Assembly: GCA_020831775.1 (NCBI GenBank)
Contig: JAFIFZ010000028.1
Coordinates: 43,753 to 107,752 of the forward strand
DNA length: 64,000 bases
Direction of reading: 5' to 3'
Origin: Phycisphaerales bacterium
GTDB taxonomy: Bacteria > Planctomycetota > Phycisphaerae > Phycisphaerales > UBA1924
Part shown: positions 43,870 through 63,937 of the stretch, one piece after another
How positions within the stretch are numbered: the first letter of the stretch is position 1
How the letters are laid out: each line of letters starts with the position of its first letter
The notes under the pieces: model-generated
Databases searched by the model: none
Told to the model about the DNA's origin: nothing
The model's input: the letters and a program-made list of their open reading frames with translations, nothing else
Translations under genes and position numbers: made by a program

Positions 43870-44034
43870 ATGGAACCGCTCGAGCACTACGAGTTTCTCA
43901 TCCTCTCGCGCAACAAAGTCTTTGGCCGGCTTCGCCCGCCCGGTGCTCGAGCGGTACACCCAGATCTTCCCGATCGTTCCTTGAACTTCCGGTTGCCGAC
44001 TACTCACGCCGGGCCGCGAGAGACTTTGTCATAA
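43870..44034 (+). pseudogene. Short open frame, possible truncated and frameshifted gene start
   Basis: The frame starts convincingly (MEPLEHYEFLILSRNKVFG) after a -10 box but then turns Pro/Arg-rich. A neighbouring frame at the same point continues AGFARPVLERYTQIFPIVP and stops near 43984. This looks like the start of a gene that lost its frame and most of its length. No family is recognised. It could also be a real 54-residue peptide. Confidence 0.3.
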
Positions 44035-44069
44035 GCGATCACTGTCACACAGAACCAGAGGAGACCCAC

Positions 44070-44681: not shown

Positions 44682-44848
44682 CGCCCGGCGGGGATAGACA
44701 TCGGCGAGGTCCGCACGCAGTTGCTCCCACCAGCCCCGTCAATAGGAGCGCTGCTCCAATTGCTGTCGCAGCCCCGCCATTGCGGCTTGCCCAGATCAGG
44801 GTGCGGCGGGACCGACGGCTGCTGATCTGCTGCATGGTCACATTGCGG

Positions 44849-44854
44849 TAAGAT
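44849..44854 (+). promoter_or_regulatory. -10 box (TAAGAT) six bases before the start codon
   Basis: TAAGAT, spacer GTCGAC, ATG 44861. Probable leaderless transcript. Confidence 0.5.
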
Positions 44855-44860
44855 GTCGAC

Positions 44861-46180: not shown

Positions 46181-46374
46181 GCACGACCTGTCGCACACTC
46201 GATACCAAAGCCATCGGCCGAACCGAGTCCCCGTTTGTCATTCACCGCATGCGGACAATGAGTCGGCGAAACGAGGTAAGGGGAATACAGTGATATCAGG
46301 AACAAGAACCACCTAGTCCGCGCGATCGACACCGACGCGGTGGGTTCCGCGGGAGCCCTACGCACCCCGCGCGC

Positions 46375-46380
46375 TACGCT
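46375..46380 (+). promoter_or_regulatory. Probable -10 box (TACGCT) for the YihY-family gene
   Basis: TACGCT is 22 bases before GTG 46403, leaving a short leader that includes GGGAG. Confidence 0.45.
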
Positions 46381-46402
46381 TTCTTGTTCACGGGAGCTTT
46401 TC

Positions 46403-47293: not shown

Positions 47294-47455
47294 CCGCGCG
47301 AGGGCGAGAGGCCGCGAGCTCTGCCGGCCACCCTCTTGGCGGACCATCAGCAGTATCGAACGACGATGTCGTTTTGCGGATGGGATGGCGGGACGGCGGC
47401 AAAACGCGAGCCGGCTTCAGTGTTTGGAGGGCGGGAGTACTCGTGGAGGTGAAGC

Positions 47456-48508: not shown

Positions 48509-48941
48509 ATCGAGTCGGAGGCTGCGCAATGCAGCCGAAACCTGATTTTGTGACCGCGTCTCTCGATCGCGTTACCGCCCGACGAGTGCGGCGGCAGCTA
48601 TCACACCCGTGTGCCCACTTCGTCACTCACACACTCGACGCCATTGACCATGTGCGCGCAGAGGCTGTCCTTCACCACAGCGCCGCCGGGGAGGAACGAC
48701 AGCACCAGGCAACGCTCAATACAGCCGAATTGCGTCCCGTGGCTGTCAGTGCCCATGGCGATCGAGGCGCTCCACGACCGCTCGACGATCACAAGTTTCT
48801 GCTTTGAATCTCCACCGGGATCCGCATGTCATGATCTGCACGCCATGGCAGCAGGTGTGACAAACAGAATGCGAGCGAACAAGCCGCTCTATCTGCGACA
48901 TTCTGATCGCATCAGCGCCGCTGATCGCGTAGCATCAGTCG
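48509..48941. other. 433-base region without a convincing gene
   Basis: The only candidate is a minus-strand frame of 63 residues (48601-48792). It reads SASIAMGTDSHGTQFGCIE and later DSLCAHMVNGVECVSDE, and has protein-like composition but no recognisable family or ribosome site. A plus-strand frame at 48505-48807 is Arg/His-rich and looks like its shadow. A TAGCAT promoter for the next gene lies at 48930. Confidence 0.45.
48930..48935 (+). promoter_or_regulatory. -10 box (TAGCAT) six bases before a TTG start
   Basis: TAGCAT, spacer CAGTCG, TTG 48942. The usual six-base spacing supports TTG as the start of the DUF502 gene. Confidence 0.4.
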
Positions 48942-49709
48942 TTGACCAACAATGCGACATCTCGCGTTCCCCGATCTCGGGCGGCCAGACTCTGGCCGCG
49001 GAGTGTGAGCGGTCTGCTTCGCCGCATTGCCGCCATCTTCACCCAGGGGCTTGTCGGGCTCCTGCCGCTGATCGTCACGGTTGTCGTGCTCGGCTGGCTC
49101 GCTTCTGTCGCCGAGCGTGTGCTCGGCACGGCGATCCAGTATGTGATTCCTGACAATTGGTACATCCGGGGCATGGGTTTGGCGGCTGGCGTGATCGTCG
49201 TCTTCATCTTCGGCCTGCTCATCAATGTCTACGGCGTTCCGCAGCTCATCAATATCACCGAGCGCAGGATCGGCCGCGTGCCGCTCGTGAAGACCATCTA
49301 CGGCGCCGTGCGAGATCTGCTCAGCTTTTTCACGCGAAAAGGCGAAGAGGGCGGGGTGAACCAGGTCGTCGTGGTCACCTTCGGTGACTCTGGCATCAAG
49401 GCCGTCGGCCTGCTGATGCGCGACACATACGAAGGCCTTCCCGAAGGTCTTGGAGGGGACGATTACATCGTCGTCTACTTCCCACAGTCGTACCAGCTCG
49501 GCGGCATGCTGCTGCTGGTGCCCCGTGAGAATGTCACGCCGCTGGACATGAAACTTGAAGATGCATTGCGCTTCATCATCACCGCCGGCGCGAAGACCAC
49601 GACATCTAAGACGGCGCCTCCGGCTCGGGTCGATGAAGAACCCGCCGGCCCGCCCACGAAAGAGCGATTCCAAGACTCTGATACGCAGCCTTCAGCGTCC
49701 GAATACTGA
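48942..49709 (+). CDS. DUF502 membrane protein
   Basis: 255 residues. It contains RIAAIFTQGLVGLLPLIVTVVVLGWLA and GLAAGVIVVFIFGLLINVYG as two membrane hairpins. Then come the DUF502 core ERRIGRVPLVKTIYGAVRDLLSFF, VVVVTFGDSGIKAVGLLM and YIVVYFPQSYQLGGMLLLV. The function is unknown. TTG 48942 follows a -10 box by six bases; GTG 49005 (SGLLRRIAA) is the alternative and would remove 21 Arg/Ser-rich residues. The C-terminal 40 residues are Thr/Pro/Ser-rich and probably disordered. Confidence 0.82.
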   Translation: MTNNATSRVPRSRAARLWPRSVSGLLRRIAAIFTQGLVGLLPLIVTVVVLGWLASVAERVLGTAIQYVIPDNWYIRGMGLAAGVIVVFIFGLLINVYGVPQLINITERRIGRVPLVKTIYGAVRDLLSFFTRKGEEGGVNQVVVVTFGDSGIKAVGLLMRDTYEGLPEGLGGDDYIVVYFPQSYQLGGMLLLVPRENVTPLDMKLEDALRFIITAGAKTTTSKTAPPARVDEEPAGPPTKERFQDSDTQPSASEY

Positions 49710-49781
49710 ACGGTGCAGAGCTTCCGTTCCTCCGCAGCCCGGCAGATCCACGCTTGGCAGAGCGATTGGCAGAGCGATTGG

Positions 49782-50327
49782 CTATTGATGGCCGTACCGC
49801 TCGAGCGCCTCGCGCACCCACTTCCGCCGAGATTGCACATCAAGCTCGCCCGCCCGGTCGATCACTTTTAGGATCTCATCATCGAGCGCGTACGACGCCT
49901 CCCACTCCTTCACCCGCCGATCCACTTCTTCCAGCACTTCTAGCGCGGCTTCGAGCCACGCGAGCTGCTGGCTGCGGCTCAGCGCCCCGAGGAACCTCGC
50001 CCTGGAGCGCAGCGGGTCGTAGGTCACCGTCACCACCCCATCGCCCATCGGCGGGCCGATCCATTCCTTGAGCACCTTCAGCCCGGCCGGGGTGATGGCG
50101 TATGTCTTGTGTTTGCGCTGACCGGTCGCCTCACGCTTGACGCTCAGGTAGGCGTAGTCCTCGAGCCGGCGCATCAACGGATAGATCGACCCGGCGCTGC
50201 CGCTCCACTGCGTCGAGGGCGAGTCGAGCATGCACTTGCGTACAACATACGGCGTGCACGGCCCGATCTGCCAGACCAGGCCGAGCACGAAGCACTCCAG
50301 CTCGCTGAGTTCTCTGGGCGTGGGCAT
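49782..50327 (-). CDS. PadR-family transcriptional regulator
   Basis: 181 residues. The N-terminal winged helix reads ELECFVLGLVWQIGPCTPYVV and SGSAGSIYPLMRRLEDYAYL, with the family's GxIYPxLxRLE pattern and a KTYAITPAGLKVLKEW wing. The C-terminal dimerisation helices (WLEAALEVLEEVDRRVKEWE) follow. PadR proteins repress neighbouring genes and themselves, releasing DNA on binding a small molecule. It is divergent from the S41 peptidase gene and a 23-bp palindrome lies between them (50385-50407). ATG 50327 is the usual start position; ATG 50345 is six codons longer. Confidence 0.88.
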   Translation of the reverse strand: MPTPRELSELECFVLGLVWQIGPCTPYVVRKCMLDSPSTQWSGSAGSIYPLMRRLEDYAYLSVKREATGQRKHKTYAITPAGLKVLKEWIGPPMGDGVVTVTYDPLRSRARFLGALSRSQQLAWLEAALEVLEEVDRRVKEWEASYALDDEILKVIDRAGELDVQSRRKWVREALERYGHQ

Positions 50328-50384
50328 ACAGAACGGGCCTCGCATCGCTGGCGCAAAGCCCTGCAACCCGGCGGCAGGGCTCCG

Positions 50385-50407
50385 GTATAGTACGAGTCGT
50401 ACTATAC
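50385..50407. promoter_or_regulatory. 23-bp palindromic operator between padR-like gene and S41 peptidase gene
   Basis: GTATAGTACGA and TCGTACTATAC form perfect 11-base arms around a single G. TATAGT and TACTAT hexamers that could serve as -10 boxes are contained within it, in both orientations, so a bound regulator would block both promoters. The PadR-type protein encoded 58 bases away is the natural ligand. Confidence 0.75.
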
Positions 50408-50424
50408 ACCCAAGGAGCCCACAA

Positions 50425-51774
50425 GTGAACCCCCGAGCGAAGCTTTGCCCCCTCGCCCTCATCGCCGTGCTCTTCGGAGCCGCAGACGCCCCTCCCGCCC
50501 AAGGACAAGGGGAGGCGCGCCACACCGAGCCGAACGCGCCGTTGGCCGACGATCTCGTTGCGACAGTTGGTTCCATCGCATCGATCCTGCGCGACGAGTA
50601 TGTCTTTCCCGATCTCGGCGAACAGATGGCGGCTGACATTCTCAACCGCCTGGAACGAGGCGAGTACAACGCGCTCAGCGACCACCGAGCCCTGGCAGAA
50701 CGCCTGACCACCGACCTGCGTGCCGTCAGCAACGACAGACACCTCGGCGTGGTTCACTCCCCCCGAGCCCAAGGCGCCGCGGCGGCAGCCTATCCACGGA
50801 GCGCTGACGACATCCGCCGTGAGAACTACTACTTCCGCAAGGTTGAACTGCTCCGGGGCAACATCGGCTACCTGCGCTTCGACCAGTTCATCGCCGGTGA
50901 CGAGGCGCAGCAGGTCGCCTCCGCCTCGCTGGCGTTCCTCGCCAACGCCGATGCGCTCATCTTCGACCTCCGCCGCAACAGCGGCGGCAGCCCGGACATG
51001 ATCCGGTACATCACCAGCTATTTTTTCGACGAACCCACGCTGCTCAATGTCATGCTCGACCGCAACGGCGAAACTGTCGACGAGTACCGCACGCTGGAGT
51101 CGGTGCCGGGCAGACGATTCCGCTCTGACCTTCCGATCTACGTGCTCACGAGCGGCTACACCTTCTCCGGCGCAGAGGAGTTCGCCTACAACCTCAAGCA
51201 CCTTGATCGAGCCATGCTCATCGGCGAGACAACCGGCGGAGGCGCACACCCCACACGTTCTCGGCGCGTCAACGACCATTTCATCATGGGCGTTCCGTTC
51301 CTCCGTGCCCGCAATCCGATCTCCGGGACCAACTGGGAAGGCACGGGCGTCAAGCCGCACATCGAGGTCAGCGCCGACAAAGCCCTCGAACGCGCACTGC
51401 GGCTGGCGCGAGAGTCCACCCTGGGAGAAATGCACGTTGGGGACGCAGGATGGCCAGAGACCAGGGCCGGAGCCGCGGCTTCGGCGTTCTTCAAGGCGTT
51501 CGGCGACAACGACGCGATGGCGAGATTCTCGAACAGATTTCGTTCCGAGTCGGCACGCCAAGGGCGATCGGACGCGTCCTACGCGGCGTTCTGGCGAGAG
51601 TTCGCCGAGGCGGCCGCACCGATCGCCTATGTCTCGCGCGGCGATCGAGAAATGACCGTCACCGCACACCTCACGCGCCGCGACGGCCGCGAGGAAACAG
51701 CAGCCTTCCGTTTCGAGTTCGAGCTTGAGCCGCCGCACGGGCTCCGAGCGATCAGCGTGTCGACGATACCCTGA
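50425..51774 (+). CDS. Secreted S41-family peptidase (IRBP/tricorn-like branch)
   Basis: 449 residues. The signal peptide is LCPLALIAVLFGAADAPPAQG. An N-terminal helical region with a DLRAVSNDRHLGV stretch precedes the protease core: GYLRFDQFI, ALIFDLRRNSGGSPDMI and TSGYTFSGAEEFAYNLKH, with the nucleophile at Ser248. The lysine of the CtpA dyad is replaced (LIGETTGGGAHP), as in the IRBP/tricorn-like members that are thought to use Ser-His-Glu. A C-terminal extension of about 100 residues has no recognised domain. GTG 50425 has AAGGAG eight bases upstream. Probably controlled by the adjacent PadR-like repressor. Confidence 0.82.
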   Translation: MNPRAKLCPLALIAVLFGAADAPPAQGQGEARHTEPNAPLADDLVATVGSIASILRDEYVFPDLGEQMAADILNRLERGEYNALSDHRALAERLTTDLRAVSNDRHLGVVHSPRAQGAAAAAYPRSADDIRRENYYFRKVELLRGNIGYLRFDQFIAGDEAQQVASASLAFLANADALIFDLRRNSGGSPDMIRYITSYFFDEPTLLNVMLDRNGETVDEYRTLESVPGRRFRSDLPIYVLTSGYTFSGAEEFAYNLKHLDRAMLIGETTGGGAHPTRSRRVNDHFIMGVPFLRARNPISGTNWEGTGVKPHIEVSADKALERALRLARESTLGEMHVGDAGWPETRAGAAASAFFKAFGDNDAMARFSNRFRSESARQGRSDASYAAFWREFAEAAAPIAYVSRGDREMTVTAHLTRRDGREETAAFRFEFELEPPHGLRAISVSTIP

Positions 51775-51831
51775 AGGCTTGGGCGTGCTCTCCGAGAAGC
51801 ACCGGATCGCGCGGGTGGCGCCCTCGACTGG

Positions 51832-51837
51832 TAGCAT
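51832..51837 (+). promoter_or_regulatory. -10 box (TAGCAT) six bases before the start codon
   Basis: TAGCAT, spacer GGGCCC, ATG 51844. Probable leaderless transcript. Confidence 0.5.
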
Positions 51838-51843
51838 GGGCCC

Positions 51844-52290
51844 ATGGCCACCCACCCCTTCGCCGACACCCTCGCACAGATCCGGGCCTGCGTGGATGAG
51901 CCGTGGGAATCTGTCGCGATGACCCTGACCGAGCACCCCGCCGAGACCCTCGGCGATCCCGCCGAGCCCGGCACAGCCGCCTGGCACCTGCACCACACAG
52001 CCGAGGTCTTCCGGCTGCACGCCCGCCACCTCATCGGGCCCGAGACCGACGCGTGGCCCCCGATCCCGCCGGACCCGACCGGCGCCATCGGCACGCTCCG
52101 AGCTGACATAGATCGCATGGAAGCGTGGGCCGCGACCCACCTCCGACCCGACACAGTGATCGACTACGGCGGGCCCCGGTCCGCGTCGGAGATGCTCGGC
52201 GCCATGCTCCGCCACATCGTGTGGCACGCGGCGGCGGCCCACTACTGGTGCTGCTGGAAGCGACCCCGGCCGTCTGAACCCGCCGACTAA
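51844..52290 (+). CDS. DinB-like four-helix protein
   Basis: 148 residues. The fold is predicted to be a four-helix bundle with three histidines suited to a metal site: His in AAWHLHHTAEVFRLHARHL and the pair in MLRHIVWHAAAAHYW. This is the DinB/YfiT pattern, which includes thiol-S-transferases and metal-dependent hydrolases, but the activity here is unknown. There is no signal peptide. The gene stands alone, and its -10 box places transcription at the start codon. Confidence 0.75.
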   Translation: MATHPFADTLAQIRACVDEPWESVAMTLTEHPAETLGDPAEPGTAAWHLHHTAEVFRLHARHLIGPETDAWPPIPPDPTGAIGTLRADIDRMEAWAATHLRPDTVIDYGGPRSASEMLGAMLRHIVWHAAAAHYWCCWKRPRPSEPAD

Positions 52291-52628
52291 CGATTGTTCC
52301 CCGCGGGACATTGCCTCCATTGCATCGCGAACATTCAGCCAGCCGAGCCGTCCAGCATCTCGCGCCAGATCTCGTCGAAGCCCCACAATCCCGTCGCTTC
52401 ATGACCAGCGGCACTTGGGTAGCGCGATATCCTCCACTCCAATTATGTACTGCCGACACCTTGGCGAAAGGCGCAGCATTCATTTCAAGCCGGCACCGAG
52501 TCCCGGCGCGGCCACAACCTCACCCGCAAGCCCCTGACAGGCTCTCACTTGGAACCAATGTCCCATCGCTCGTTTTCGAGTATGCTCTCGTGCCGTTCTG
52601 GGCATGATCGCCATCCCGACAGGAGTCA
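52291..52628. other. 338-base region with no gene seen
   Basis: Reading frames here are short and have the composition of shadows. The only sites noted are a TATGCT box at 52581-52586 and an AGGAGT ribosome site near 52619, both serving the serine hydrolase gene. Confidence 0.5.
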
Positions 52629-54038
52629 ATGCCAATGACCCTTTTACCCCTCGTTGCTGTCATCACAGCTCTGCTCATCAATACCACCGCGACACCCGCG
52701 GCGATCGCATCCCCGGATCATGCGATGCTGATCGAGCGCATCGACAAGATCGCAAAGCAATCACTTCATCAGCCAGGCGCAGCCGGCCTCTCGATTGCGG
52801 TTGCAAGAGGCGATGAGCTCATTATCGCTAAGGGATACGGCCTTGCGGATGTTGCACACGATGTGCCCATGACAGAGCACACCATGCTGCGCATCGGCTC
52901 AGTGACGAAGCAGTACACTGCCGCTCTCATCCTGAAGCTTGTCGAACAGGACAGACTCGGACTGGACGACCCGCTCACCAAGTACATCGAGTACCCAACA
53001 GGCGATCACATCGTCACCATTCGCCATCTACTGAATCACACGTCTGGAATTTATATTTACACCGATGTCGATGGGTTCTGGCAAGAACATGCGTCTCGCG
53101 AACTGACGCCCGAAGAGCTGCTGGACCTGTTTCGCGACAAGCCGCTCGGCTTTCCGCCGGGCCAGCGGTTCGCCTACACCAATACCGCGTATTACCTTCT
53201 CGGCATGGTCATCGAAGAGATCACAGGACAGACATACGCCGAGGCGCTGCACGATGTGTTGCTTGAACCCCTTGCCCTGAAGAGCACCCGATACGATGTG
53301 TCCGCCGACATCGTGAAACACAGAGCACGGGGCTATTCACTGGGAAACAGCGGCATCACCAATGCGCAACCGATCGACATGCGCAATCCCGGAGCGGCCG
53401 GCGGCCTCATGGCCACGGCATCCGACCTCGTGCGATGGAAGCAGCGACTCGTTGCCGGGACCGTGGTAGATGCAGCACTGTTCCAGATGATGATTACGCC
53501 GACTACGCTTACTCACTGCTCAACTCACAGTTACGGCTTTGGTCTTGATACGAGGGATGTACACGATCGCGTGTGCATCTCTCACGACGGGAATATCAAT
53601 GGCTTCAGTTCGACGCTGATGTACTTCCCCGAGGACGACTGGCACATCGCAGTCATCGCCAACAGCCAGACCGTGAACGCTTCGATGACCGCAACACGCA
53701 TCGCTGCTGCTGTGCTCGGGGTCGAGGAGCATGCCGACGAGACGCCTCTGAAGGACCTTCCGGTTCCGGACGAGCTGATCGATCGAATCACAGGTACATA
53801 CCGGCTTGAGGTCATCAACCTTGACATCCGACTCTGGGGGGTTGGCGACCGCCTCTTCGCAGACGCACCCGGATACCCGCACCTCAGACTCATGTACCAG
53901 GGCGGCGGCATGTTCAGAACGACGATTGATCCGACACTTCGCATGAGTGTCTTGATCGCCAGCGACGAGCCCACAATGGCTTCGTTTACGCTGGAGCAAG
54001 GGGGATTCATGCTGCATGTGATCCGAGTAGATGACTAG
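52629..54038 (+). CDS. Secreted serine hydrolase, beta-lactamase (class C/PBP4*-like) family
   Basis: 469 residues. A signal peptide (LLPLVAVITALLINTTATPAAIA) precedes the catalytic domain. Ser91-Val-Thr-Lys94 is the SxxK nucleophile, Tyr183-Thr-Asn is the YxN motif, and His319-Asp-Gly is the KTG-equivalent (HxG). The family contains esterases, D-aminopeptidases and carboxypeptidases as well as beta-lactamases, so substrate is not inferred. The C-terminal 110 residues form a beta-rich lipocalin-like extension. Two candidate ATGs (52629, 52635) follow AGGAGT. The gene has lower GC than the genes to its left but shares their scarcity of ACGT. Confidence 0.85.
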   Translation: MPMTLLPLVAVITALLINTTATPAAIASPDHAMLIERIDKIAKQSLHQPGAAGLSIAVARGDELIIAKGYGLADVAHDVPMTEHTMLRIGSVTKQYTAALILKLVEQDRLGLDDPLTKYIEYPTGDHIVTIRHLLNHTSGIYIYTDVDGFWQEHASRELTPEELLDLFRDKPLGFPPGQRFAYTNTAYYLLGMVIEEITGQTYAEALHDVLLEPLALKSTRYDVSADIVKHRARGYSLGNSGITNAQPIDMRNPGAAGGLMATASDLVRWKQRLVAGTVVDAALFQMMITPTTLTHCSTHSYGFGLDTRDVHDRVCISHDGNINGFSSTLMYFPEDDWHIAVIANSQTVNASMTATRIAAAVLGVEEHADETPLKDLPVPDELIDRITGTYRLEVINLDIRLWGVGDRLFADAPGYPHLRLMYQGGGMFRTTIDPTLRMSVLIASDEPTMASFTLEQGGFMLHVIRVDD

Positions 54039-54147
54039 AGCCAGAGAACTCGGCAATCGATTGTCGACTGAGGTGATCAGGCACACATTCTCCTATGCCC
54101 ATGTGCTGATCTCACACGGTCAGGCGGTCGCGCAGGCGAGCATCCGG

Positions 54148-55533
54148 TCAGCTCCGTGCCGGGCTAGATGACACTCTACGCACGAGCACGAGTGAGATGA
54201 GTCGATACATAACGAGCACGACGAACAGTGCACCAATCGCGATGTAGACACGAAGGAACAAGCCGTCTATCACTAACTTGCTCTGGTCGGCCGCCGTTAT
54301 GATCCGACCATCCATTGCGCTTTTCCATTCGTCGATCCGGTCGCTCCAATCCGGCGAAGCCAATAGGTCCGCCGACGATTCAAGCACCTGATCCAGATCG
54401 TGCGCCGTGGCCCCCGTCTCTTTCACCATCTCGGTGTACTCGCGTATGTCAAATTGTCGCTTCCCTTGCGCGACGGACCATCGGTTCGATGCGTCGTATC
54501 TCGCGAACAGGGCATAGGCCGTTGTGAGCAATGGGTCGAGCGATTCGCCGGCACCTTGGATCGCGACCACAAGCGACTCTATCTCGGCAACAACATCTCT
54601 GGCATGGGCGACCGTCATGTCTACCCGCTCCATGCGAGAATCGACAGCCGCGAGAATGGCCTCGCGCTCGGCCGCGACATCCTCTGGCAAGCGCTCAACC
54701 TGACGGGCGACCCGATCCAGGTTGTTAAGCGCCAGGGATGCTTCGGGGGTTGCGAGCAGGTCGTACTTCGCCGCCTCGAGCTGCCAGCGCAGCAGCATGG
54801 GTTCCCGCTTGAGTCGATAAAACACCCGCTCGCCCAAGAGGCGCACCTCGTCAACCGCCTGGCTCGCATCCCCGAGTTCCCTGAAGAGGCCACTAGACGG
54901 AGCCACTTCGGACGCTTTGGATTGCCCCCGCCCGATGGAAAAATTGGAGAAGCGCACATACGAGGCGTGGATCATCTCTGGATTCTCGCTTCGCCAGTCC
55001 AACAGCAGCGATTCGAGCACGGCGAGGTGCTCCTCGGTCAGCACCCGCGCCGCCAGCTCGAACGCTTCTTGACGCGAGTGGACCAAGGCGCGAACCAGCG
55101 GCGAGGCGCGATCACCGAAGATCTGCTCGGCCCGACCGTCGTCAACCCACACCTGGCTCATCAATCGCGTGACCACGACCAGATCGAGCACGCGAGTGAA
55201 CGGATCGGCATTGCTGGCGATGTCGTACACATTGGTCGCGACATCCAGCAGCAGCGACTGCGCCTCCCGCAGCTGCACCGGATCAGCGTTATCTTTTTTC
55301 AGAGCTTCACAGGCGGAAAACAGAAGACCGACATATCGATCGGCAAACGCGCGGGTAAGTTCATCGAGCTCCGCCGCGGTCACGAACTCGCCGGCCTCCG
55401 CGCCCTCCACCTCGCGCGGCGTCTCCGGCTCTTGCCGCGGCGATGTCGCACAGCCCACGCACAACAGCACGCTTCCCATCACCCCCAGAGCGGCGCCGAA
55501 TCGCTCAGTGACAACGCGCCGTCCGGTGTTCAT
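54148..55533 (-). CDS. Lipoprotein with C-terminal membrane helix, function unknown
   Basis: 461 residues. The N-terminus is a lipoprotein signal ending VLLCVGC. The body is helical with Glu-rich segments (VARQVERLPEDVAAEREAIL, AHARDVVAEIESLVVAIQG). Near the C-terminus is one membrane helix (LRVYIAIGALFVVLVMYRL) and then a short Arg-rich tail. A protein tied to the membrane at both ends is unusual. No family is recognised. ATG 55533 is chosen because it starts the lipoprotein signal and has GGGAGCGGAG upstream; a further 34 in-frame codons are unlike a signal. Confidence 0.65.
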   Translation of the reverse strand: MNTGRRVVTERFGAALGVMGSVLLCVGCATSPRQEPETPREVEGAEAGEFVTAAELDELTRAFADRYVGLLFSACEALKKDNADPVQLREAQSLLLDVATNVYDIASNADPFTRVLDLVVVTRLMSQVWVDDGRAEQIFGDRASPLVRALVHSRQEAFELAARVLTEEHLAVLESLLLDWRSENPEMIHASYVRFSNFSIGRGQSKASEVAPSSGLFRELGDASQAVDEVRLLGERVFYRLKREPMLLRWQLEAAKYDLLATPEASLALNNLDRVARQVERLPEDVAAEREAILAAVDSRMERVDMTVAHARDVVAEIESLVVAIQGAGESLDPLLTTAYALFARYDASNRWSVAQGKRQFDIREYTEMVKETGATAHDLDQVLESSADLLASPDWSDRIDEWKSAMDGRIITAADQSKLVIDGLFLRVYIAIGALFVVLVMYRLISLVLVRRVSSSPARS

Positions 55534-55844
55534 GATGCTCCGCTCCCATTGCTCGGCCACAGGCGACGGGCCCACGACAACACGCACCGGCTCAGCCGGC
55601 GGCGGCCGCCCCAGCGATCGGGCGGTCGCCAGCACGGTACCGAACGGTATGAACGGAAAGATGGAGTCGAACTCAGGGCGTCCCCGAGGGACCGCGTTGG
55701 AAACCCACTACGAAACAACCCTCCCGTTTCGAGGAGGGTTGCGCGTAGTGAGAATAGTGCTGGCTGGACTCTGATCGGGGCGGAGATCTCGCGGAGATCG
55801 TCTGGGTCTTCAAGAGCGACGTGGCGGCACGCTCAACCGTCGAC
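55534..55844. other. 311-base intergenic region holding a long hairpin at the island border
   Basis: Between two minus-strand genes. It contains the inverted repeat at 55706-55750 and the first ACGT site of the island (55817). No gene is seen. Confidence 0.6.
55706..55750. repeat. Two-part inverted repeat (16 paired bases)
   Basis: CACTACG (55706-55712) pairs with CGTAGTG (55744-55750). Inside it CAACCCTCC (55716-55724) pairs with GGAGGGTTG (55733-55741), separated by 3- and 2-base internal gaps and an 8-base loop. No T-run follows on either strand. It lies at the left border of the ACGT-rich island and could be a terminator, a REP-like element or a recombination site. Confidence 0.65.
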
Positions 55845-57149
55845 TCAGGTTCCATCCGTAGATCTCTGTGACTCTGATGCTTGCGCTTCTCGGATGGCCC
55901 GTTCGTGTGACTTGATACCTGGATGAGTGCATTCAGGGAGGTCTCCGACTGACCGGGTGAAGGGATCGCATTCGTCTGCCACCCTGTCCGCCCAACAGAG
56001 CCAACGCTCCATCAAGTCCTTGTCGTCTGCCGTGAGAGTCTCCTCGGTGAGGCGTCGACGCACCTCCGCGATGAAGAGTCGGACGGAGCCCGCCATATGC
56101 CAGTCCTCCGCCAGCCCGGCCAAGCGGTCGCGACATGCTTGCTCTGCCTTCAACCGTTCTTCCTCGATTCGCCGGCGCTCTGCTTCCTGTGCGGCCAACT
56201 GTCGTCGCTCCCGCTCCCGCTCCGCTGCAAGCTTCTGCTGGTACGCCCGCTCAAGGTCTCTATCCGCTTCCTGGAGCACCGCCATGGCGATCTCGGCGAT
56301 GCGATCCTCAATCAGTCCAGCTCGCTTGCCATCCTTGATCTTGAAAAAGTCGTGAGACCATCCGGCTCGGTTGAGCTCCACGAAGAGCTCTCCTGTGTGC
56401 ACGTAATCGTACTTCGGCGCGAAGCTGTAGCTGTATCGTTCCTTGTTACGCTTCTCATCAGGTGTGAGGACGTGGTCGGTCCTCCTGGTACGTTCGCGGA
56501 TTCGAAGCTGAAACCTGTAGCCGCCGAGACCGAGGATGGCCGTTCGATTCCACTCGTCCTTCGGCGGGTGCTCCTCACAGCCCAGGCCGTGAAGCGTCTT
56601 CACTATCGCGTCCACCAGGAGCAAGGCACGCTGGCGTAGCTCCTTGGAGGCAGATACGGCAATGTACGGTTCCATGTATCGCGGCTCGCTGATCAGGGTT
56701 CCGCGGCTGTCTCTCCTAGGCTTGCGATCCGCTGCAGCGAGCGCTTCACGTGTCATCCTTGTGAGAGCTGTGCAACCGCGCAGATTCGTGCCGACCTGAT
56801 GCACGAGTTCTCCACGCTGCACGCGGGCCGCAACTGCCCCCAGTGCTTCGTCGAAAAAGACCCGGGCGTTCTGTGTCGCCCTCTCGTCCTGCAGAGGCTT
56901 TGGCGTAAACGAGATGACTTCCCCGACGCCTTCGGGAGCAGGGGGTAGCTGCGGCTGCTTGACCTTCTTGCCATGCTCCACCTTCGCCCAGTATCCGACA
57001 GGCGGTCGGGGGATGGCGTACTTCTTGCAGACCTTGGCCAGGCCGACATCCGACAGGCTGTACTCCGATGCCAACACCCGCAACGGGGTCGCCCACACCT
57101 GTTCGTACAGTTGCTGGCGCGTGATCTCTGATCGTCCGGACGTGTCCAT
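55845..57149 (-). CDS. HTH-like / coiled-coil protein of unknown function, at the edge of the island
   Basis: 434 residues. The N-terminus has a conserved-looking, HTH-like segment: ITRQQLYEQVWATPLRVLA then YSLSDVGLAKVCKKYAIPRPPVGYWAK. I recognise this opening from uncharacterised proteins scattered in bacterial genomes. The middle is mixed alpha/beta (SYSFAPKYDYVHTGELFVEL). Residues about 300-350 form a charged coiled coil (AAERERERRQLAAQEAERRR). The function is unknown. It is divergent from the SMC/nuclease operon and shares its ACGT-rich, lower-GC composition, so the two probably arrived together. It may be a regulator or an accessory factor. Confidence 0.7.
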   Translation of the reverse strand: MDTSGRSEITRQQLYEQVWATPLRVLASEYSLSDVGLAKVCKKYAIPRPPVGYWAKVEHGKKVKQPQLPPAPEGVGEVISFTPKPLQDERATQNARVFFDEALGAVAARVQRGELVHQVGTNLRGCTALTRMTREALAAADRKPRRDSRGTLISEPRYMEPYIAVSASKELRQRALLLVDAIVKTLHGLGCEEHPPKDEWNRTAILGLGGYRFQLRIRERTRRTDHVLTPDEKRNKERYSYSFAPKYDYVHTGELFVELNRAGWSHDFFKIKDGKRAGLIEDRIAEIAMAVLQEADRDLERAYQQKLAAERERERRQLAAQEAERRRIEEERLKAEQACRDRLAGLAEDWHMAGSVRLFIAEVRRRLTEETLTADDKDLMERWLCWADRVADECDPFTRSVGDLPECTHPGIKSHERAIREAQASESQRSTDGT

Positions 57150-57219
57150 GTCGTATTATCGGACATTTCCGATCACAACGGGCCTCGCCCCTCCTAGTCT
57201 GGGGCATGGGGCTGTGAAC

Positions 57220-57260
57220 GGTTAGAATAACCCTAACAGCCAGGCCACGTTGCGCCTGGC
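57220..57260. promoter_or_regulatory. Inverted repeats in the divergent intergenic region
   Basis: GGTTA-GAA-TAACC (57220-57232) is a small perfect inverted repeat of operator size. Directly after it, GCCAGGC (57239-57245) pairs with GCCTGGC (57254-57260) around an 8-base loop. Both lie between the divergent HTH gene and the SMC operon (167 bases apart), a natural control point for both. Confidence 0.45.
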
Positions 57261-57316
57261 AGAGCACCAATAGGGGAAGTATTTGCTTCCTCGGCCCAAA
57301 TCGCTCCCTCTTGCCA

Positions 57317-58555
57317 ATGGCCCGCCACCCAACTGATTTCATCCGCTTCCTCGCGAAGCACTATCAGATACTCTCGGCGATGTGCCGTGAGAACCGACGG
57401 TTCACATCCGAATCGGAGCTGGAAGTTTTCTGCGGCACCCACAGTCCGCCAGACGCGAACGCGGGAGCCATCGCGCGACGCCTTCGAGAACTCGGCGCGG
57501 TCACGCAAGCGACCGGGGACTGGGCACCTCCGCCGTACCTCCGAGCATTCCTGGCAGAGCTCGAGCAGCGGCACGCTCTTGCAAGCCCCGGGGTAGTCCG
57601 CGGGTGGGTCGAGAAGCTGATCGACCTCGCTTCGCGCCTTGAATCTTCAACTAGCTCGCTGACCGGCGGTGATGACCGGTATGACATCGCGGTGGTCGAT
57701 CTCTTTGACGAGATAACCGACACTCTCGCGAGCATCGCGGGTGCCGTCGGAGCCAACTGCGACCGCATCGGCAACGAGGTGTCAAAATACCGCTCGGAGG
57801 AGGATGCGACTCAGATACGAAAGAGGCTCTCGAGACTTGTTGATCTTCATGCAAGCTACTTGGAGCCGGTACTTGGCCTCGTCGACATCGGTGGCGACTT
57901 CCACATGGTTTGCGAGCGTATTGCCTCAGACTGCGAATCAATAGCGCAGGATACGATCGGCATTCGCGATGACTCACTCAGACAAGCCGCGATAACGGCA
58001 AGCCGGGATGTCGTTTGGCTCCGTCGCAGTACGCTTCGCCGAGCTCACGAGGCCAATCGAGAGCTCGGACCACTCTGCGAAGCCGCTGCTCGAGAGTCCA
58101 CCATTACACGCGGCGTCAACCGTGCACTCGAGGCCATGGCGAACGATCGATGGGATCGACTCGGCCTTCACCGACACCTTCAAGTGGTCATTGATCAAGA
58201 CGGCCCGATCATCAGTGATCGGGGCGCGAAGACGGTCGTGTCTGGCGCACGTAGCTACAGAGTCGAGCCACCACCGCTGTTGGGGACTGGCAGCCAATCC
58301 GAAATGGACGTCCCATGGGGCGCAGGGGCGCTCCTCGCAGCACTTGAAGCTTCCTCACATGTTCCGGATGTACTGGAATGGATTTGCGACAGGGTTGGCT
58401 GGGAGGCTGCGGACGGGCCGGCCGGTCTGCTCTATGACCTCTTGGAGTTAGAGGCAGATGGATTCGCCGCTGGTGCAGGGACTCGCACCTATGTCTTCCG
58501 CGGTGTCGATATGGATGCACACATCTGGGCATGGAGGGCTCCAGCTCATGACTGA
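57317..58555 (+). CDS. jetA: JetA/MksF-like (kleisin-type) subunit of a Wadjet-like system
   Basis: 412 residues, close to MksF/JetA size. The N-terminus looks like a winged helix (FIRFLAKHYQILSAMC and NAGAIARRLRELGAVTQ), followed by a helical middle. Sequence identity to known kleisins cannot be judged by eye; the call rests on position, size and helical character at the head of a four-gene SMC operon in jetA-B-C-D order. In Wadjet/MksBEFG the kleisin bridges the SMC heads and holds the kite subunit. It ends in ATGACTGA, overlapping the next gene by eight bases. ATG 57317 is preferred over TTG 57311. Confidence 0.65.
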   Translation: MARHPTDFIRFLAKHYQILSAMCRENRRFTSESELEVFCGTHSPPDANAGAIARRLRELGAVTQATGDWAPPPYLRAFLAELEQRHALASPGVVRGWVEKLIDLASRLESSTSSLTGGDDRYDIAVVDLFDEITDTLASIAGAVGANCDRIGNEVSKYRSEEDATQIRKRLSRLVDLHASYLEPVLGLVDIGGDFHMVCERIASDCESIAQDTIGIRDDSLRQAAITASRDVVWLRRSTLRRAHEANRELGPLCEAAARESTITRGVNRALEAMANDRWDRLGLHRHLQVVIDQDGPIISDRGAKTVVSGARSYRVEPPPLLGTGSQSEMDVPWGAGALLAALEASSHVPDVLEWICDRVGWEAADGPAGLLYDLLELEADGFAAGAGTRTYVFRGVDMDAHIWAWRAPAHD

Positions 58556-59174
58556 CGTGATCTCCAACTCGGCACTCATTCCGCTCCCGGCACGCCTGTC
58601 GTCGGTCTTCCGCTCCTTGCGGAGCGGGCGTCATCTCAGCCGAGAGGACGGAGCCGACTTTCTCGACTTAGATCGACACGCCCCTCAGTACGCTCACATA
58701 TTGGCGGGTCTTGGGTACGACCTCCAGAGGCACCCCCAGGGCTTCTACTACCTCCAGGGCCGAGGTTCGATCCGCTCTGAGCGAATGCGTGCGGCCCTGC
58801 TGTTCATGTTGATCTTGTTTCAGGCTCTCGACGAGACAAAGTTCCAGACCGATGACCGTTCGTGGGAGCGGTCACTGCTGAGGCGATCGTTTCGAGTCGC
58901 GGAGCTCCCACACTTTCAGACGGCTCAGAGACGCTCCATGATGTCCGCTGTCGGCGTCGACGAGGCGGGGCTCGCTCGTGTGCTTCAACTTCTGGATCGC
59001 CTTGGAGTCGTTCGAATGCTTCCCGAGGCCCAGTTCGAATTCTTGCCACCCGTGCATCGCTTCATCGATCTTTGTGTTCACTTTGCTGAGGACGATCAAT
59101 GGTCCGAGTCCTCCGAGCCAACGGACGGAGTCTCGGATCTTGATGATGATGAGAGCGAAGGGGAGGGCAAGTGA
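58548..59174 (+). CDS. jetB: JetB/MksE-like (kite-type) subunit of a Wadjet-like system
   Basis: 208 residues, as expected for kite proteins (about 200). Two predicted winged-helix segments are visible (LDLDRHAPQYAHILAGLGYD and VGVDEAGLARVLQLLDRLGV), separated by a helical part (MRAALLFMLILFQALDE). The C-terminal 25 residues are strongly acidic. The role would be to bind the kleisin and DNA. It overlaps the upstream gene by eight bases and the SMC gene by four (GTGA at 59171-59174), which keeps the subunits in fixed ratio. The call is based mainly on position and size. Confidence 0.65.
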   Translation: MTDVISNSALIPLPARLSSVFRSLRSGRHLSREDGADFLDLDRHAPQYAHILAGLGYDLQRHPQGFYYLQGRGSIRSERMRAALLFMLILFQALDETKFQTDDRSWERSLLRRSFRVAELPHFQTAQRRSMMSAVGVDEAGLARVLQLLDRLGVVRMLPEAQFEFLPPVHRFIDLCVHFAEDDQWSESSEPTDGVSDLDDDESEGEGK

Positions 59175-61999
59175 CTGAGTTTGGCGTTCAGCGTCTCGTG
59201 GTGATCAACAGCGGTGGCTATCATTTTGCCGATGTGGCGATGGATGGTCCTATCCACCTCGTGGCTCCCAACAATCGTGGGAAGTCAACGTTGGTGAACG
59301 CACTGCAGTTCCTGTATGTCGACGACATCCGCAAAATGCGCTTTCCACGCTCTCCCGATGAGACACGCGAGCATTATTTCGGGAGCGCCCCGTCCTACCT
59401 GCTATTTGAGTGCGTCACCGCCCTTGGCCCTCAGACTCTGCTGGTCGTCGGCCGGGGTCGCCTGGCCGGCTCGGCCTTTGCCAGGTATATGTTTGCCGGA
59501 GGCTTTCAGCAGGAGGATTTTCGAGATACCGACGGTCGCGTCGCCGCATTCGACTTGGTGCAGGCTCGCCTGGCCGATCGATCGCTCCTGGAGGTCAAGC
59601 AATCGCAGCTGTGGGAGGTCCTTTGCACCGCTTCACGACGTGCCCGAACCGCGCAGAACACGGGCCATCTTCCACAGCTCGGGCTTCTCCCGATACGAAC
59701 GCGCGAGGATTACCGATCCTTCCGAGAGGCGTATGTACGACTGCTGTCGCTGAGCGACATGAGTGCGGCAGAACTCCGCCAGCTACTCATTGACTGCCAT
59801 GCTTCTGAAGTCGGGGAACTCAAGCTCGACGTAGCGGCTGAGTACCGCGATGAGTTTGAACGCGCAGAGCGTACGGAATCGCAACTCGCATTTCTCGAAG
59901 CCATAGGACCCATGATCGATGATGGGGAACAACGGCGTGAGCGCCTGAGCGTTTATCGATCTCGCATCGCCGATGAACTCCCAATGAGTCTGTCAGAACT
60001 CGCCGAGCTACTGCAGGCATGCCGTACTCACGAGGTGGCAGCGCAGGATGCGACTGTCGTTATGGATGAATCCTTGGTTCAGTTAGACAGCCAGCGAGGC
60101 GACCTCCATACTGCAAAGGGCAGTCTGCGGACCGAGCTTGAACATGTGCAGCGCAATCTTGCTGAACTTGATGCCGCGCACTCGAGATGGCGCTCCGTTA
60201 CACCGCAGATGCTCGACACCATGCGAGACAATGCCGCCACGACACGAGATGCCATTGCCGCCAAGAAGGAGTTGCTTCGACAAGCAGGCACGTTCGATCA
60301 TGGTGCTATGCGGCGATCCGTCCGTAGCCTTCAGCGCGAAGCTGAATCCCAAGAGCGTTCACTGGAGCATTGGGAACGCCAAGTTCGTGGCTGGCTGGTC
60401 GAGCAGGGTGTGGCGTGGGAAACAATCGACAAAGCATTCCGGGTGCTCAATCCTGGGCTGCTTCGGCTCGCCATTGGCGATGATGTCACTGTCGCCAGGC
60501 CTGAAGAGCTTCTCGCGCGGATAGCGGCTCTTGCCGAGCATGTCGAAAGCGACACATATGATGACGGACGTGTTCTGGTGCGTCTTACTTCTCTCGCAGG
60601 TCCAGATCTTTCAGAGCACGACGACCCCCAAGCCGCCAGGGCATTGCTGCGAATTACCAAAGCACGGCTAGAGGACGATCTCAAACGATTGCACGTGGCC
60701 GAGGACATCGAACGAGCGCACGCAGAGCTTGCCGAGATAGAGCAACGCCATGCCGAGCAAGCGGATCGGCTCGCCGAGTACGACGACTATCGCCGGCGAT
60801 GGGATCGAAGGCCGGAGCGAGTCAGCGAACAAGTCCAGCTGTCACAGAAACTTAATGAGATCGACACGCGACTGGATGCACTCCGTGCAAGGGAAGTCGA
60901 GATCGGGCAGAAGCGGGACCAGATCAACCAGAACGCGAAGGCGATCCGGGACCGCCAGGACCAGCTGCGAGAAGCCAAACGCGATGTTGAAGTAGCGCTC
61001 GAGGTGGTTGGTATGGCCGATCTCTGCACATTGTCGAATGCGGACGACGTGGAAGATGCCCCCACGGACCTCTTTCGCAGATGCGACGAATGCGTCGCTA
61101 CCCTTAAGGTCATCGCCAAGCAGGCTGCGGACTGCAAGCACGAGCGTGACAGGCTCTCGACCATCCAGCGCAGGATCGCCGAGATCGCTCGGGAACATTC
61201 ACGTGGCCCATACTTCGTTGGAGACGAAGAGCAGGATTGGCGCGAGCTCATCGGCACTCGCCGCGCGATGTCCGAGCTGTATCAGGCGAACCAGCAGAGC
61301 TGGGATGCGCTGTTTACGACCATCCGAGCACGCCTCGACGCCCTCATGCGAGGGGTGCGAGCAATTTCCAACGCAGCCACGCGAGTCAACAGCGCGATGA
61401 AGCATCACCGCGTCAGCAACCTGAAAGAAGTGCAGCTTAGTGTGACACGGCAGCATGAGGCCTGCGACCTCCTGGAGAGCCTGACCGGTCCAGACGGACT
61501 CTTCGCTGATCGAGAGACCCTTGATAGGGCTCGCGACCGACTGCGGCGCTGGATCAAGGACGGCAAGGTCATTCGCCTTCAGGATCTGTTCGCGATCCGC
61601 ATCCGCGTCCAAGGGATGGATGGGCATTGGACCGAAGCCAAGTCACTTGACGAGATTGGAAGCACTGGTACCGGAATGACCGCCAAGGCGATGATCTTCA
61701 TTCAGCTCGTTCGGGCGGTCGTTGCCGACAAGAGGTACCGGCTGCACTTCTACCTCGACGAGACCGGCCAGCTCGACGATAAGAACTTGCACGCGACTAC
61801 CGCGATGGCGGTCGAACGTGGCGTTGTGCCCATCACTGCCGAACCCCGAGTGCGGGCCGAGCCTCTCGCCCATCCGTCCGTGACCGTGTACAGCCTCGGC
61901 CAAGACCGCCAGGGCCGATTCTTCATTGACGCGCGTCGAACACTGCGAGCGACCCAGCGAGCATCCACCAAGGAGCCGGCGAAAGATGTCGCAGACTGA
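59171..61999 (+). CDS. jetC: JetC/MksB-like SMC-type ATPase of a Wadjet-like system
   Basis: 942 residues, near MksB length (about 950) and shorter than typical JetC. The Walker A motif at 32-40 is APNNRGKST (Lys38), with Ala for the first Gly. Long charged coiled-coil arms run from about 225 to 780. The Walker B is HFYLDETG, with Asp863-Glu864. The ABC signature LSGGx is not visible; GSTGTGMT at 830-837 occupies that position. These heads should dimerise on ATP and extrude DNA loops, bringing circular DNA to the nuclease. The gene overlaps both neighbours. The last 25 residues are basic and may be disordered. Confidence 0.8.
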   Translation: MTEFGVQRLVVINSGGYHFADVAMDGPIHLVAPNNRGKSTLVNALQFLYVDDIRKMRFPRSPDETREHYFGSAPSYLLFECVTALGPQTLLVVGRGRLAGSAFARYMFAGGFQQEDFRDTDGRVAAFDLVQARLADRSLLEVKQSQLWEVLCTASRRARTAQNTGHLPQLGLLPIRTREDYRSFREAYVRLLSLSDMSAAELRQLLIDCHASEVGELKLDVAAEYRDEFERAERTESQLAFLEAIGPMIDDGEQRRERLSVYRSRIADELPMSLSELAELLQACRTHEVAAQDATVVMDESLVQLDSQRGDLHTAKGSLRTELEHVQRNLAELDAAHSRWRSVTPQMLDTMRDNAATTRDAIAAKKELLRQAGTFDHGAMRRSVRSLQREAESQERSLEHWERQVRGWLVEQGVAWETIDKAFRVLNPGLLRLAIGDDVTVARPEELLARIAALAEHVESDTYDDGRVLVRLTSLAGPDLSEHDDPQAARALLRITKARLEDDLKRLHVAEDIERAHAELAEIEQRHAEQADRLAEYDDYRRRWDRRPERVSEQVQLSQKLNEIDTRLDALRAREVEIGQKRDQINQNAKAIRDRQDQLREAKRDVEVALEVVGMADLCTLSNADDVEDAPTDLFRRCDECVATLKVIAKQAADCKHERDRLSTIQRRIAEIAREHSRGPYFVGDEEQDWRELIGTRRAMSELYQANQQSWDALFTTIRARLDALMRGVRAISNAATRVNSAMKHHRVSNLKEVQLSVTRQHEACDLLESLTGPDGLFADRETLDRARDRLRRWIKDGKVIRLQDLFAIRIRVQGMDGHWTEAKSLDEIGSTGTGMTAKAMIFIQLVRAVVADKRYRLHFYLDETGQLDDKNLHATTAMAVERGVVPITAEPRVRAEPLAHPSVTVYSLGQDRQGRFFIDARRTLRATQRASTKEPAKDVAD

Positions 62000-62840
62000 G
62001 CGAAGGTTTCTTCGAGCCTTGCGAGCGCAAATGGAGCAGGGCTTTCCCATGTCTGCTGTGCCTGCGACATGCAAGCCCATGGTCATGGCCCTTGAGACTT
62101 GCGGCGCTGTCGAGTGTCGCCGGTCAGGGCGAGGCGAGACGATCCGAGTCAAAAACCTAGACGCATTTGAACTCTTTGTATCGTCGCGTTATCCGATCGG
62201 ATTGGAAGAGCCTGAGGAGCTGCCTCGCGATCGAATCGACGCTGTTAGACTGCTCGGCAACGCCAAGACGGCGCTTCGCGGTCGCTACGAGGGCCTGTTG
62301 CTGCGTTCTGTGAAACCAGGAGTGGCGATTGTGAATCAATCAGGAAACGTGATTCAGATCGCCGAGCTGACAGAGCTGTGCGGTGCTGCAGCGATCACAC
62401 TTGAGGACTCTCGACGCTACCGGTTTGCTGGGCGTGTTGTCGTTGTTGAGAATGCCGAGCCTTTCTGGCAGTTTGAGCAGGAAGTTCCGGAGGGCGATCT
62501 GGCGATATACGCAGCCGGGCGTTTGTCGGAGCGTGTTCTTTCTTGGCTTGCTTCGGAAGAGATGGCCGAGTGCGATATCGTCCAATGGGGGGACTACGAC
62601 CCGGTTGGTTGTACCGAGTACCTGAGGCTCAAAGGTCGGTGTGGCGATCGGGTTTCACTTCATGCGCCGTCTCGGGTGGACGCGCTCTTGCCGGTACATG
62701 GCAAGACGACTTTGCTCACAGAACAGACGACCGCTCTGACACAACTCCGTCGGCTAGCGCTCCCTCCCGAGGTGACACGGCTCATGGAATTGTTCGACAG
62801 ACACCAGCGTGCCTTGGAGCAGGAGGCACTGTTGATGTAA
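61986..62840 (+). CDS. jetD: JetD/MksG-like Toprim nuclease of a Wadjet-like system
   Basis: 284 residues, about 100 fewer than usual JetD. The N-terminal 60 residues look like a winged helix (ERRFLRALRAQMEQGFPMSAV). The Toprim acidic residues are Glu155 (VVVVENAEPFWQF) and Asp203-x-Asp205 (WGDYDPVG). In Wadjet this subunit cleaves plasmid DNA once the SMC complex has detected a small circle. The long N-terminal arm of known JetD proteins seems to be missing. It starts at ATG 61986, inside the SMC gene (14-base overlap). The stop is TAA 62838-62840. Confidence 0.75.
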   Translation: MSQTERRFLRALRAQMEQGFPMSAVPATCKPMVMALETCGAVECRRSGRGETIRVKNLDAFELFVSSRYPIGLEEPEELPRDRIDAVRLLGNAKTALRGRYEGLLLRSVKPGVAIVNQSGNVIQIAELTELCGAAAITLEDSRRYRFAGRVVVVENAEPFWQFEQEVPEGDLAIYAAGRLSERVLSWLASEEMAECDIVQWGDYDPVGCTEYLRLKGRCGDRVSLHAPSRVDALLPVHGKTTLLTEQTTALTQLRRLALPPEVTRLMELFDRHQRALEQEALLM

Positions 62841-63142: not shown

Positions 63143-63937
63143 TCACTCCCCCTCCTCCTCGTCATCATCAACATCCGTCTCTTCGTCCGTCGAGGCCGAC
63201 GGCTCGCCTCCGCTTTCGCTGGTGGAGCTGAGGGGAGGCTCGCCGGAGGTGGCCGATGAGCCGGAGGAGGAACTCGACGACGAGCTCGAGGAGGAAGACC
63301 CGCTCGACGAGCTTTCCGATGAGCCGCTGGTCGAGCCGCTGGGACCCGTCGAGCCGGAGGTCGCGCCGGGCGATCCCGACGACGGCCCGGCGGAGCTCGA
63401 TGCGGGGCCGCCGCTGGAACCGGACGCGCCCGAAGACACGGGTCCCGAGGATGCGGGTCCGGAGGAACCGGATGATCCATGGCCGGAGGAGTGCGGCCCG
63501 CCGCTGGAGCCGGTCCCGCCCGAGCCCGGCTGCGAGCCCTGCGATGACCCGGACCCGGTGGCGCCTGTGGTGCCGCCCGTCGTGCCGCCGCTCGAGGCGC
63601 TGGGCGTGCTCGGTGTCGGGTCGGTGAAGGTGCTGTCGGAGATCGAGACCGAGGGCGTCGAGGTCTGGGATCCCCCACCGCTGCTGCCGCCGGGCGGGGT
63701 TGTTCCGCCGCCTGAGCTGCCGCTGGAGATCATCCAACTGGGCGTCGAGAACGAGGCCGTGTCGGTCATGGTGCTCGACATCGATTCGCTCATCGACTCT
63801 GAGCTCTCGCTCGACGACCCGCCGCCGCCACCGGGGCCGGACCCGGATGAAAGTCCGCTCGATCCGCCGCCCTGCGGCGGGGTGCCCGTCGCCCAGACGG
63901 GGATGTAGAGGTAGTACCGGGTCGGGCCGTCGCTCAT
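63143..63937 (-). CDS. Ser/Gly-rich low-complexity protein
   Basis: 264 residues. It opens with a short ordered segment (SDGPTRYYLYIPVWATGTPP) and is then almost entirely Ser, Gly, Thr and Pro, with a poly-Ser run near residues 220-235 and an acidic tail (DEETDVDDDEEEGE). No signal peptide is present. The composition suggests a flexible spacer or a surface or virion-like structural protein; the function is unknown. The start is well supported: GAAGGAGG lies seven bases upstream, and its ATG overlaps the stop of the preceding gene (ATGA). Confidence 0.6.
   Translation of the reverse strand: MSDGPTRYYLYIPVWATGTPPQGGGSSGLSSGSGPGGGGGSSSESSESMSESMSSTMTDTASFSTPSWMISSGSSGGGTTPPGGSSGGGSQTSTPSVSISDSTFTDPTPSTPSASSGGTTGGTTGATGSGSSQGSQPGSGGTGSSGGPHSSGHGSSGSSGPASSGPVSSGASGSSGGPASSSAGPSSGSPGATSGSTGPSGSTSGSSESSSSGSSSSSSSSSSSSGSSATSGEPPLSSTSESGGEPSASTDEETDVDDDEEEGE

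Follow-up and report, generated by a model that had tools for sequence, protein, structure and literature searches.

A nuclease-armed operon of the short-armed Mks branch, outside Wadjet types I and II, in a Phycisphaerales genome

A four-gene operon in a genome of the order Phycisphaerales (GenBank assembly GCA_020831775.1) raises the question of whether it encodes a plasmid-restriction machine of the Wadjet kind and, if so, of which type. The operon occupies positions 57317-62840 on the forward strand of a 64,000-nucleotide stretch of contig JAFIFZ010000028.1 (positions 43,753 to 107,752), here called the window. By sequence comparison it is a nuclease-armed member of a short-armed Mks branch and is neither a type I nor a type II Wadjet; taken with predicted structures and analogy to studied systems, it probably works as a Wadjet-like plasmid-restriction machine. 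A sequence-only reading of the window had described four genes on one strand, of 412, 208, 942 and 284 residues, with overlaps of 4-14 bases; the coordinates of the open reading frames (ORFs) agree, and adjoining frames overlap by 8, 4 and 14 bases in order. An alternative start of the first gene, TTG at 57311, would give 414 amino acids (aa). The gene order kleisin-KITE-SMC-nuclease recurs in many relatives, and the nearest named record (L015) is that of a Phycisphaerales bacterium.

The KITE protein matches the Pfam family MksE (PF21980) with 80.5 bits (cut-off 27), the nuclease matches Pfam JetD_C with 32.5 bits (cut-off 22), and the NCBIfam Mks SMC model NF040859 aligns with the SMC protein across residues 2-894 with 152 bits; because of these scores and the gene order common to many relatives, the match of the operon is beyond chance. 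The kleisin is predicted to have a MukF-like fold, its AlphaFold model (predicted local distance difference test score 79.5, predicted template modelling score 0.47) giving structural matches to MukF; the NCBIfam Mks kleisin model NF040857 matches it weakly. The co-directional kleisin, KITE and SMC genes of the Mks/Wadjet group are thus all present, the kleisin by its predicted fold, and the kleisin and KITE folds proposed earlier for the first two proteins are upheld by that prediction and by the MksE match. The names of the NCBIfam models appear to be swapped relative to the literature, the SMC model NF040859 (926 positions) being called "MksF" and the kleisin model NF040857 (412 positions) "MksB". 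The SMC protein has heads of the MukB/MksB type with Walker A, signature and Walker B motifs, and the SMC-type Walker A and Walker B DE noted from the letters are present as the P-loop at residues 32-40 and as Asp863-Glu864.

The fourth protein consists of a winged helix (residues ~1-90) and a Toprim domain (~98-284), and its predicted fold matches the structures 8b7f and 7til. Conservation was followed in a nuclease alignment of 33 rows (A2) and in a second set of 27 locus-derived nucleases, the window protein being counted in both. Glu155, Asp203 and Asp205, which had been picked out as the Toprim acidic residues, are invariant in 33/33 and 27/27 rows, as are Gln279 and Glu280 of a C-terminal LEQE motif; Glu278 is found in 33/33 and 25/27 rows. 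With the Glu and DxD of MksG/JetD Toprim domains in place, the protein is, on sequence and modelling, a predicted MksG/JetD-type nuclease, composed of a winged helix and a Toprim domain, whose catalytic residues are retained. In the Corynebacterium glutamicum enzyme, mutation of Glu236 or Asp279 drastically impaired cutting, according to the available passages of PMC10123090.

Membership in the Wadjet types was judged with PADLOC, whose best scores were 24 bits for the SMC (JetC1) and 29 bits for the nuclease (JetD1), with no match of any operon protein to the JetA or JetB models; the control loci gave 1047 bits for JetC1 and 388 bits for JetD1 (type I, L086) and 1408 bits for JetC2 (type II, L090). 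The type II models scored 20.5 bits (JetC2) and 13.6 bits (JetD2), and for type III solely JetC3 models appeared, at 6-9 bits, with no positive control among 274 genomes. The operon is therefore placed outside types I and II, as the sequence-only reading had suspected for the common types. Three other SMCs of the branch (L018, L055, L077) likewise scored no higher than 30 bits against the PADLOC models, and two further branch nucleases stayed at or below 30 bits with no match. Nor does the operon fall within the NCBIfam MksBEF equivalogs (NF040857/58/59), its scores against the cut-offs being 152/1900 bits for the SMC, 50/400 for the KITE and 22/750 for the kleisin.

A profile built from 25 SMC heads of the subgroup of the window SMC matched the NCBIfam-defined Mks SMC of locus L077 with 99.7% (N head) and 98.5% (C head) probability and MukB with 88% and 90%. 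JetC1 was matched at 94% and the canonical SMC of the same genome at 79%, in both cases by the N head only, and JetC2 at 1.4% and 0.2%. Two asparagines precede the xGK of the P-loop in all 31 rows of the SMC alignment (A1) and in L077, whereas JetC1, JetC2, MukB and the canonical SMC have NG at this place. In a quick tree of the heads (62 rows), the window SMC stood in a group of 56 with the Mks SMCs, apart from JetC1, JetC2 and MukB (Shimodaira-Hasegawa-like approximate likelihood ratio 92); the tree carried long-branch warnings, so that the profile and motif results are also relied on for the placement. The short-armed Mks branch is defined here by the NN P-loop and by clustering with L077 and not with JetC1, JetC2 or MukB, and the window SMC shows both features, the second in that quick tree. 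Subunit homology, heads and predicted folds together support the earlier assignment to the Wadjet/MksBEFG-like group. The coordinates of genes and motifs are given in Table 1.

Table 1. Genes and motifs of the operon, in window coordinates
Feature	Position	Strand	Remarks
Kleisin gene (MksF/JetA position)	57317..58555	+	412 aa from ATG
KITE gene (MksE/JetB position)	58548..59174	+	208 aa
SMC ATPase gene (MksB/JetC position), short arms	59171..61999	+	942 aa, GTG start
P-loop APNNRGKST, residues 32-40, NN before xGK	59264..59290	+	Sequence and alignment
ABC signature region GSTGTGMT, residues 830-837	61658..61681	+	Sequence and alignment
Walker B Asp863-Glu864	61757..61762	+	Glu in 27/31 A1 rows
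MksG/JetD-type nuclease gene	61986..62840	+	284 aa
Toprim Glu155 codon	62448..62450	+	Invariant in 33/33 and 27/27 rows
Toprim DYD, Asp203-Tyr204-Asp205	62592..62600	+	Asp203 and Asp205 invariant in 33/33 and 27/27 rows
EQE of C-terminal LEQE motif, residues 278-280	62817..62825	+	Conservation in A2 and locus set

The distant SMCs of the branch include those of L082, L083 and L084, and at the latter two loci the kleisin-sized and KITE-sized genes follow the SMC gene and do not precede it. In four of the 31 A1 rows (P0161, P0171, P0174, P0179) the Walker B Glu is replaced by Gly (IDGLGELDD); three of these rows form one clade with L017, whose nuclease is intact. By its sequence, the SMC of this clade should hydrolyse ATP poorly, which is odd beside an intact nuclease.

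In the available passages of PMC10586767 and PMC12647877, studied Wadjets are described as SMC motor dimers joined by the kleisin that extrude DNA loops and whose nuclease cuts small circles. By analogy, the kleisin, KITE and SMC proteins of the operon would assemble as a dimer via the kleisin N-termini and would use ATP to extrude loops. A small circle would be extruded completely, so that the two motors would run into each other; this encounter would release the nuclease, which would then cut the circle. The chromosome and linear DNA would be spared. Loop extrusion, trigger and cut are carried over from the studied Wadjets, and the kleisin and nuclease folds are predictions. The short N-terminus of the nuclease and the short arms of the SMC could be two points of mechanistic difference in this branch. 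The sequence cannot separate targets, and the available passages of PMC10586767 review Wadjet and the SMC-like Lamassu jointly as anti-plasmid and anti-phage systems; still, the nuclease-armed systems described in the literature passages at hand restrict plasmids, and a defence with the same SMC-plus-nuclease design directed chiefly against phage or other invading DNA is considered unlikely.

Plasmid restriction by the operon would go with its sporadic occurrence. The Mks SMC model matched one of 61 relatives, namely the window's own genome, and a phylum-wide search with the SMC alignment, in which the two best candidates per genome were scored, found 3 of 294 genomes including this one. JetD_C was matched in four of the 61 relatives, of which one (G028) has a type I Wadjet by PADLOC; a JetD_C match in a relative of the same order (L014, genome G048) adjoins an SMC match that is weak (28 bits). 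The genome also encodes a separate canonical SMC (858 bits). The G+C content at third codon positions (GC3) lies at 0.62-0.68 in the four genes, compared with 0.83-0.92 in 25 of 28 ORFs of the first 43.8 kb, whose selection rule was itself biased towards high GC3; the overall G+C content is 0.595 in the operon and 0.678 in bases 1-44000, and within window positions 44001-62000 it drops from ~0.68 to ~0.61. Comparable sets are borne on plasmids: Salinibacter ruber pSR76 (L092, 76 kb) carries kleisin, SMC and nuclease genes with a KITE-sized gene between, and similar sets (L093-L095) are found on a Neptuniibacter plasmid (172 kb) and on two Pseudomonas megaplasmids (0.90 and 0.97 Mb), a likely case of plasmid defence itself carried by plasmids. 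Rarity, low GC3, a separate canonical SMC and plasmid carriage are features typical of mobile defence systems.

The same observations bear on whether the complex serves chiefly as an additional chromosome condensin like the MksBEF of Pseudomonas aeruginosa, its Toprim protein helping to resolve or repair chromosomal DNA. The SMC stands on the same branch as the nuclease-free Mks condensin of NCBIfam, and the available part of PMC7485682 describes a role of P. aeruginosa MksBEF in segregating chromosomes. Occurrence in a single genome out of 61, low GC3 and the 858-bit canonical SMC speak against such a role, as does the retention of Glu155, Asp203 and Asp205 in every one of the locus-derived nucleases, and it is rated as quite unlikely. 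An imported inactive remnant would also account for the low GC3 and for the absence from 60 of 61 genomes, which suggest import and are silent on activity; with four intact overlapping frames and intact Walker A, Walker B and Toprim residues, this is very unlikely. That the operon is of Rad50, RecN or Lamassu type and resembles Wadjet by gene order alone, an identity once named as the outcome that would overturn the Wadjet assignment, is highly improbable: PADLOC LmuB matches are at best 22.5 and 20 bits (residues 222-595 and 500-675, mainly coiled coil; no LmuA or LmuC match and no positive control), and the identity is contradicted by the MksE-family KITE, the MukF-like kleisin and the head profile, which gives 28.5% and 0.6% for SbcC and less than 1% for RecN against the high values for L077 and MukB.

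Several points weigh against plasmid restriction by a Wadjet-like complex. The kleisin matched no Pfam family and no PADLOC model, and its matches to MukF have low template modelling scores (0.24 for 7nz2) and root-mean-square deviations of at least 11.4 Å, with domain positions that differ. The score of the SMC lies far below the NF040859 cut-off, and that with Pfam DUF3584 (30.7 bits) is marginally below the cut-off of 31. The N-terminal part of the nuclease is much shorter than that of JetD, and its activation could therefore differ. The related sets reside on plasmids of 76-172 kb, 0.90 Mb and 0.97 Mb, so not every plasmid is excluded. PADLOC gave no match for eight neighbouring proteins and the upstream gene, and no other defence gene was found beside the operon. 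Low GC3 extends beyond the four genes, as the three preceding ones (52629-57149) have values of 0.68-0.73; an import may thus exceed the operon. The genes in the stretch ahead of it are ordinary, encoding for example an S41 peptidase and a hydrolase with a beta-lactamase fold. Directly upstream and in the opposite direction, the gene at 55845-57149 (-) encodes 434 aa with no Pfam or PADLOC match and no convincing NCBIfam match; the fetched loci contain no homologue of it. Beyond the operon, the ORF at 63143-63937 (-) is of low complexity, with many Ser, Gly, Thr and Pro residues and an acidic C-terminus.

How the nuclease is distributed across the branch was determined from one profile scan of genome contigs, which yielded 49 loci. 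A nuclease gene lies directly downstream at 21 and was not found with widened profiles at 18; ten were undecidable, the contig ending within 1500 bases or the SMC being missing or a short fragment, so that 21 of 39 decidable loci are armed. With phyla taken from record titles, all 15 judged Bacteroidota and 3 of 13 Verrucomicrobiota are nuclease-free (among the latter L059, whose SMC is broken), and the nuclease is present in all judged Planctomycetota (3), Acidobacteria (4), Gammaproteobacteria (2), Desulfobulbaceae (1) and Anaerolineae (1). Beyond the 49 loci, L077 (1991 bits, above the NCBIfam cut-off), L078 and L079 are without the nuclease and L080 and L081 have it. No substitute for the nuclease was recognised by eye downstream at L077-L079 and at 13 of the 18 nuclease-free loci, the rest of those genomes not being searched. 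A careful tree (54 rows) includes 27 rows with the nuclease and 11 without, L082 and L083 being set aside in this count, and requires no fewer than four switches between the two states. Pairwise distances of nucleases and SMC heads correlate with r = 0.941 over 27 loci, a value reached by none of 2000 permutations. The tree alone is silent on gain versus loss; the presence changes and the nuclease divergence that tracks the SMC together favour an armed ancestor, from which the nuclease was, by these sequence comparisons, likely lost repeatedly.

Loss of the nuclease was compared with the presence of the canonical SMC in 31 genomes at 1e-60. None of the 10 genomes with the nuclease-free Bacteroidota form has a canonical SMC (loci L026-L030, L032, L036, L038, L039, L056 and L060 are concerned), and all 21 others do, 19 of them above the cut-off. 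Since the 21 include the nuclease-free Verrucomicrobiota L050 and L061, nuclease loss alone is not coupled to SMC loss, and the 10 SMC-less genomes, draft assemblies of one clade, count as one event at most. In a sample of Bacteroidota, SMC was found at 1e-40 in 247 of 296 genomes and was missing from 49; the Mks SMC family was matched in two of the 296, one without SMC (G064) and one with it (G929). PMC10197239, in the passages available, reports that none of the known condensins was found in the two Bacteroidetes it studied and leaves the question open. The nuclease-free Bacteroidota form bears on this question, but cannot be the general answer for SMC-less Bacteroidota, given two matches to the family against 49 genomes without SMC. 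A wider reading, held tentatively and at somewhat less than even confidence, is that the operon would represent an additional type of Wadjet and be the armed form within the MksBEF condensin lineage; that in this branch the plasmid cutter would have lost its nuclease, and so been disarmed, on four or more occasions; that in one Bacteroidota lineage the disarmed motor would have replaced the lost SMC chromosome-wide; and that MksBEF condensins would be retired immune systems.

The main value of the operon is evolutionary. The available passages of PMC10586767 propose that the MksBEF of P. aeruginosa likely arose from JetABCD via loss of JetD and treat the relationships as unresolved; because the branch holds armed and nuclease-free members side by side, this proposal becomes testable. 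With its nuclease-free relatives, the operon could help to show how defence machines would become chromosome organisers. It would be missed by PADLOC, whose models score near chance here. No publication was found that names the short-armed branch in its title or at the start of its abstract, and the available passages of PMC10512200 and PMC12153180 hold nothing specific on it. Several distantly related MksBEF families are described in the part of PMC7485682 available, and the Mks/Wadjet survey of PMC7617805 (Cell 2025), in its available passages, includes members with and without MksG. The limits given there (SMC >890 aa, kleisin 400-1200, KITE 150-800, MksG optional) would admit the operon, and the survey may already list such operons; no claim is made that the branch is unreported.

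Among known systems, the operon differs from type II Wadjet (Neobacillus vireti, PDB 9qe0; control L090), whose SMC has 1377 aa in L090 and shows no head similarity by profile. MukBEF of Escherichia coli shares with it the kleisin fold, the similarity of both heads and the order mukF-mukE-mukB, but MukB has 1486 aa and an NG P-loop, and mukB is followed by ldtD and not by a nuclease gene. Type I Wadjet (JetABCD of E. coli GF4-3 and P. aeruginosa PA14) and the MksBEFG of C. glutamicum are alike in the order kleisin-KITE-SMC-nuclease, in the Toprim Glu and DxD and in the nuclease fold match to 8b7f and 7til; they differ in the length of the SMC (942 aa in the window, 1131 in L086 and 1111 in C. 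glutamicum), in the P-loop (NN against NG in L086) and in the nuclease, which has 284 aa in the window but 402 in L086 and 368-374 residues in solved structures. The nuclease-free Mks condensin modelled by NCBIfam, which we take to be the Pseudomonas aeruginosa type, has L077 as its reference locus and resembles the operon in its short SMC (943 aa in L077), its NN P-loop and both heads; L077 has no MksG downstream, and the window operon has one.

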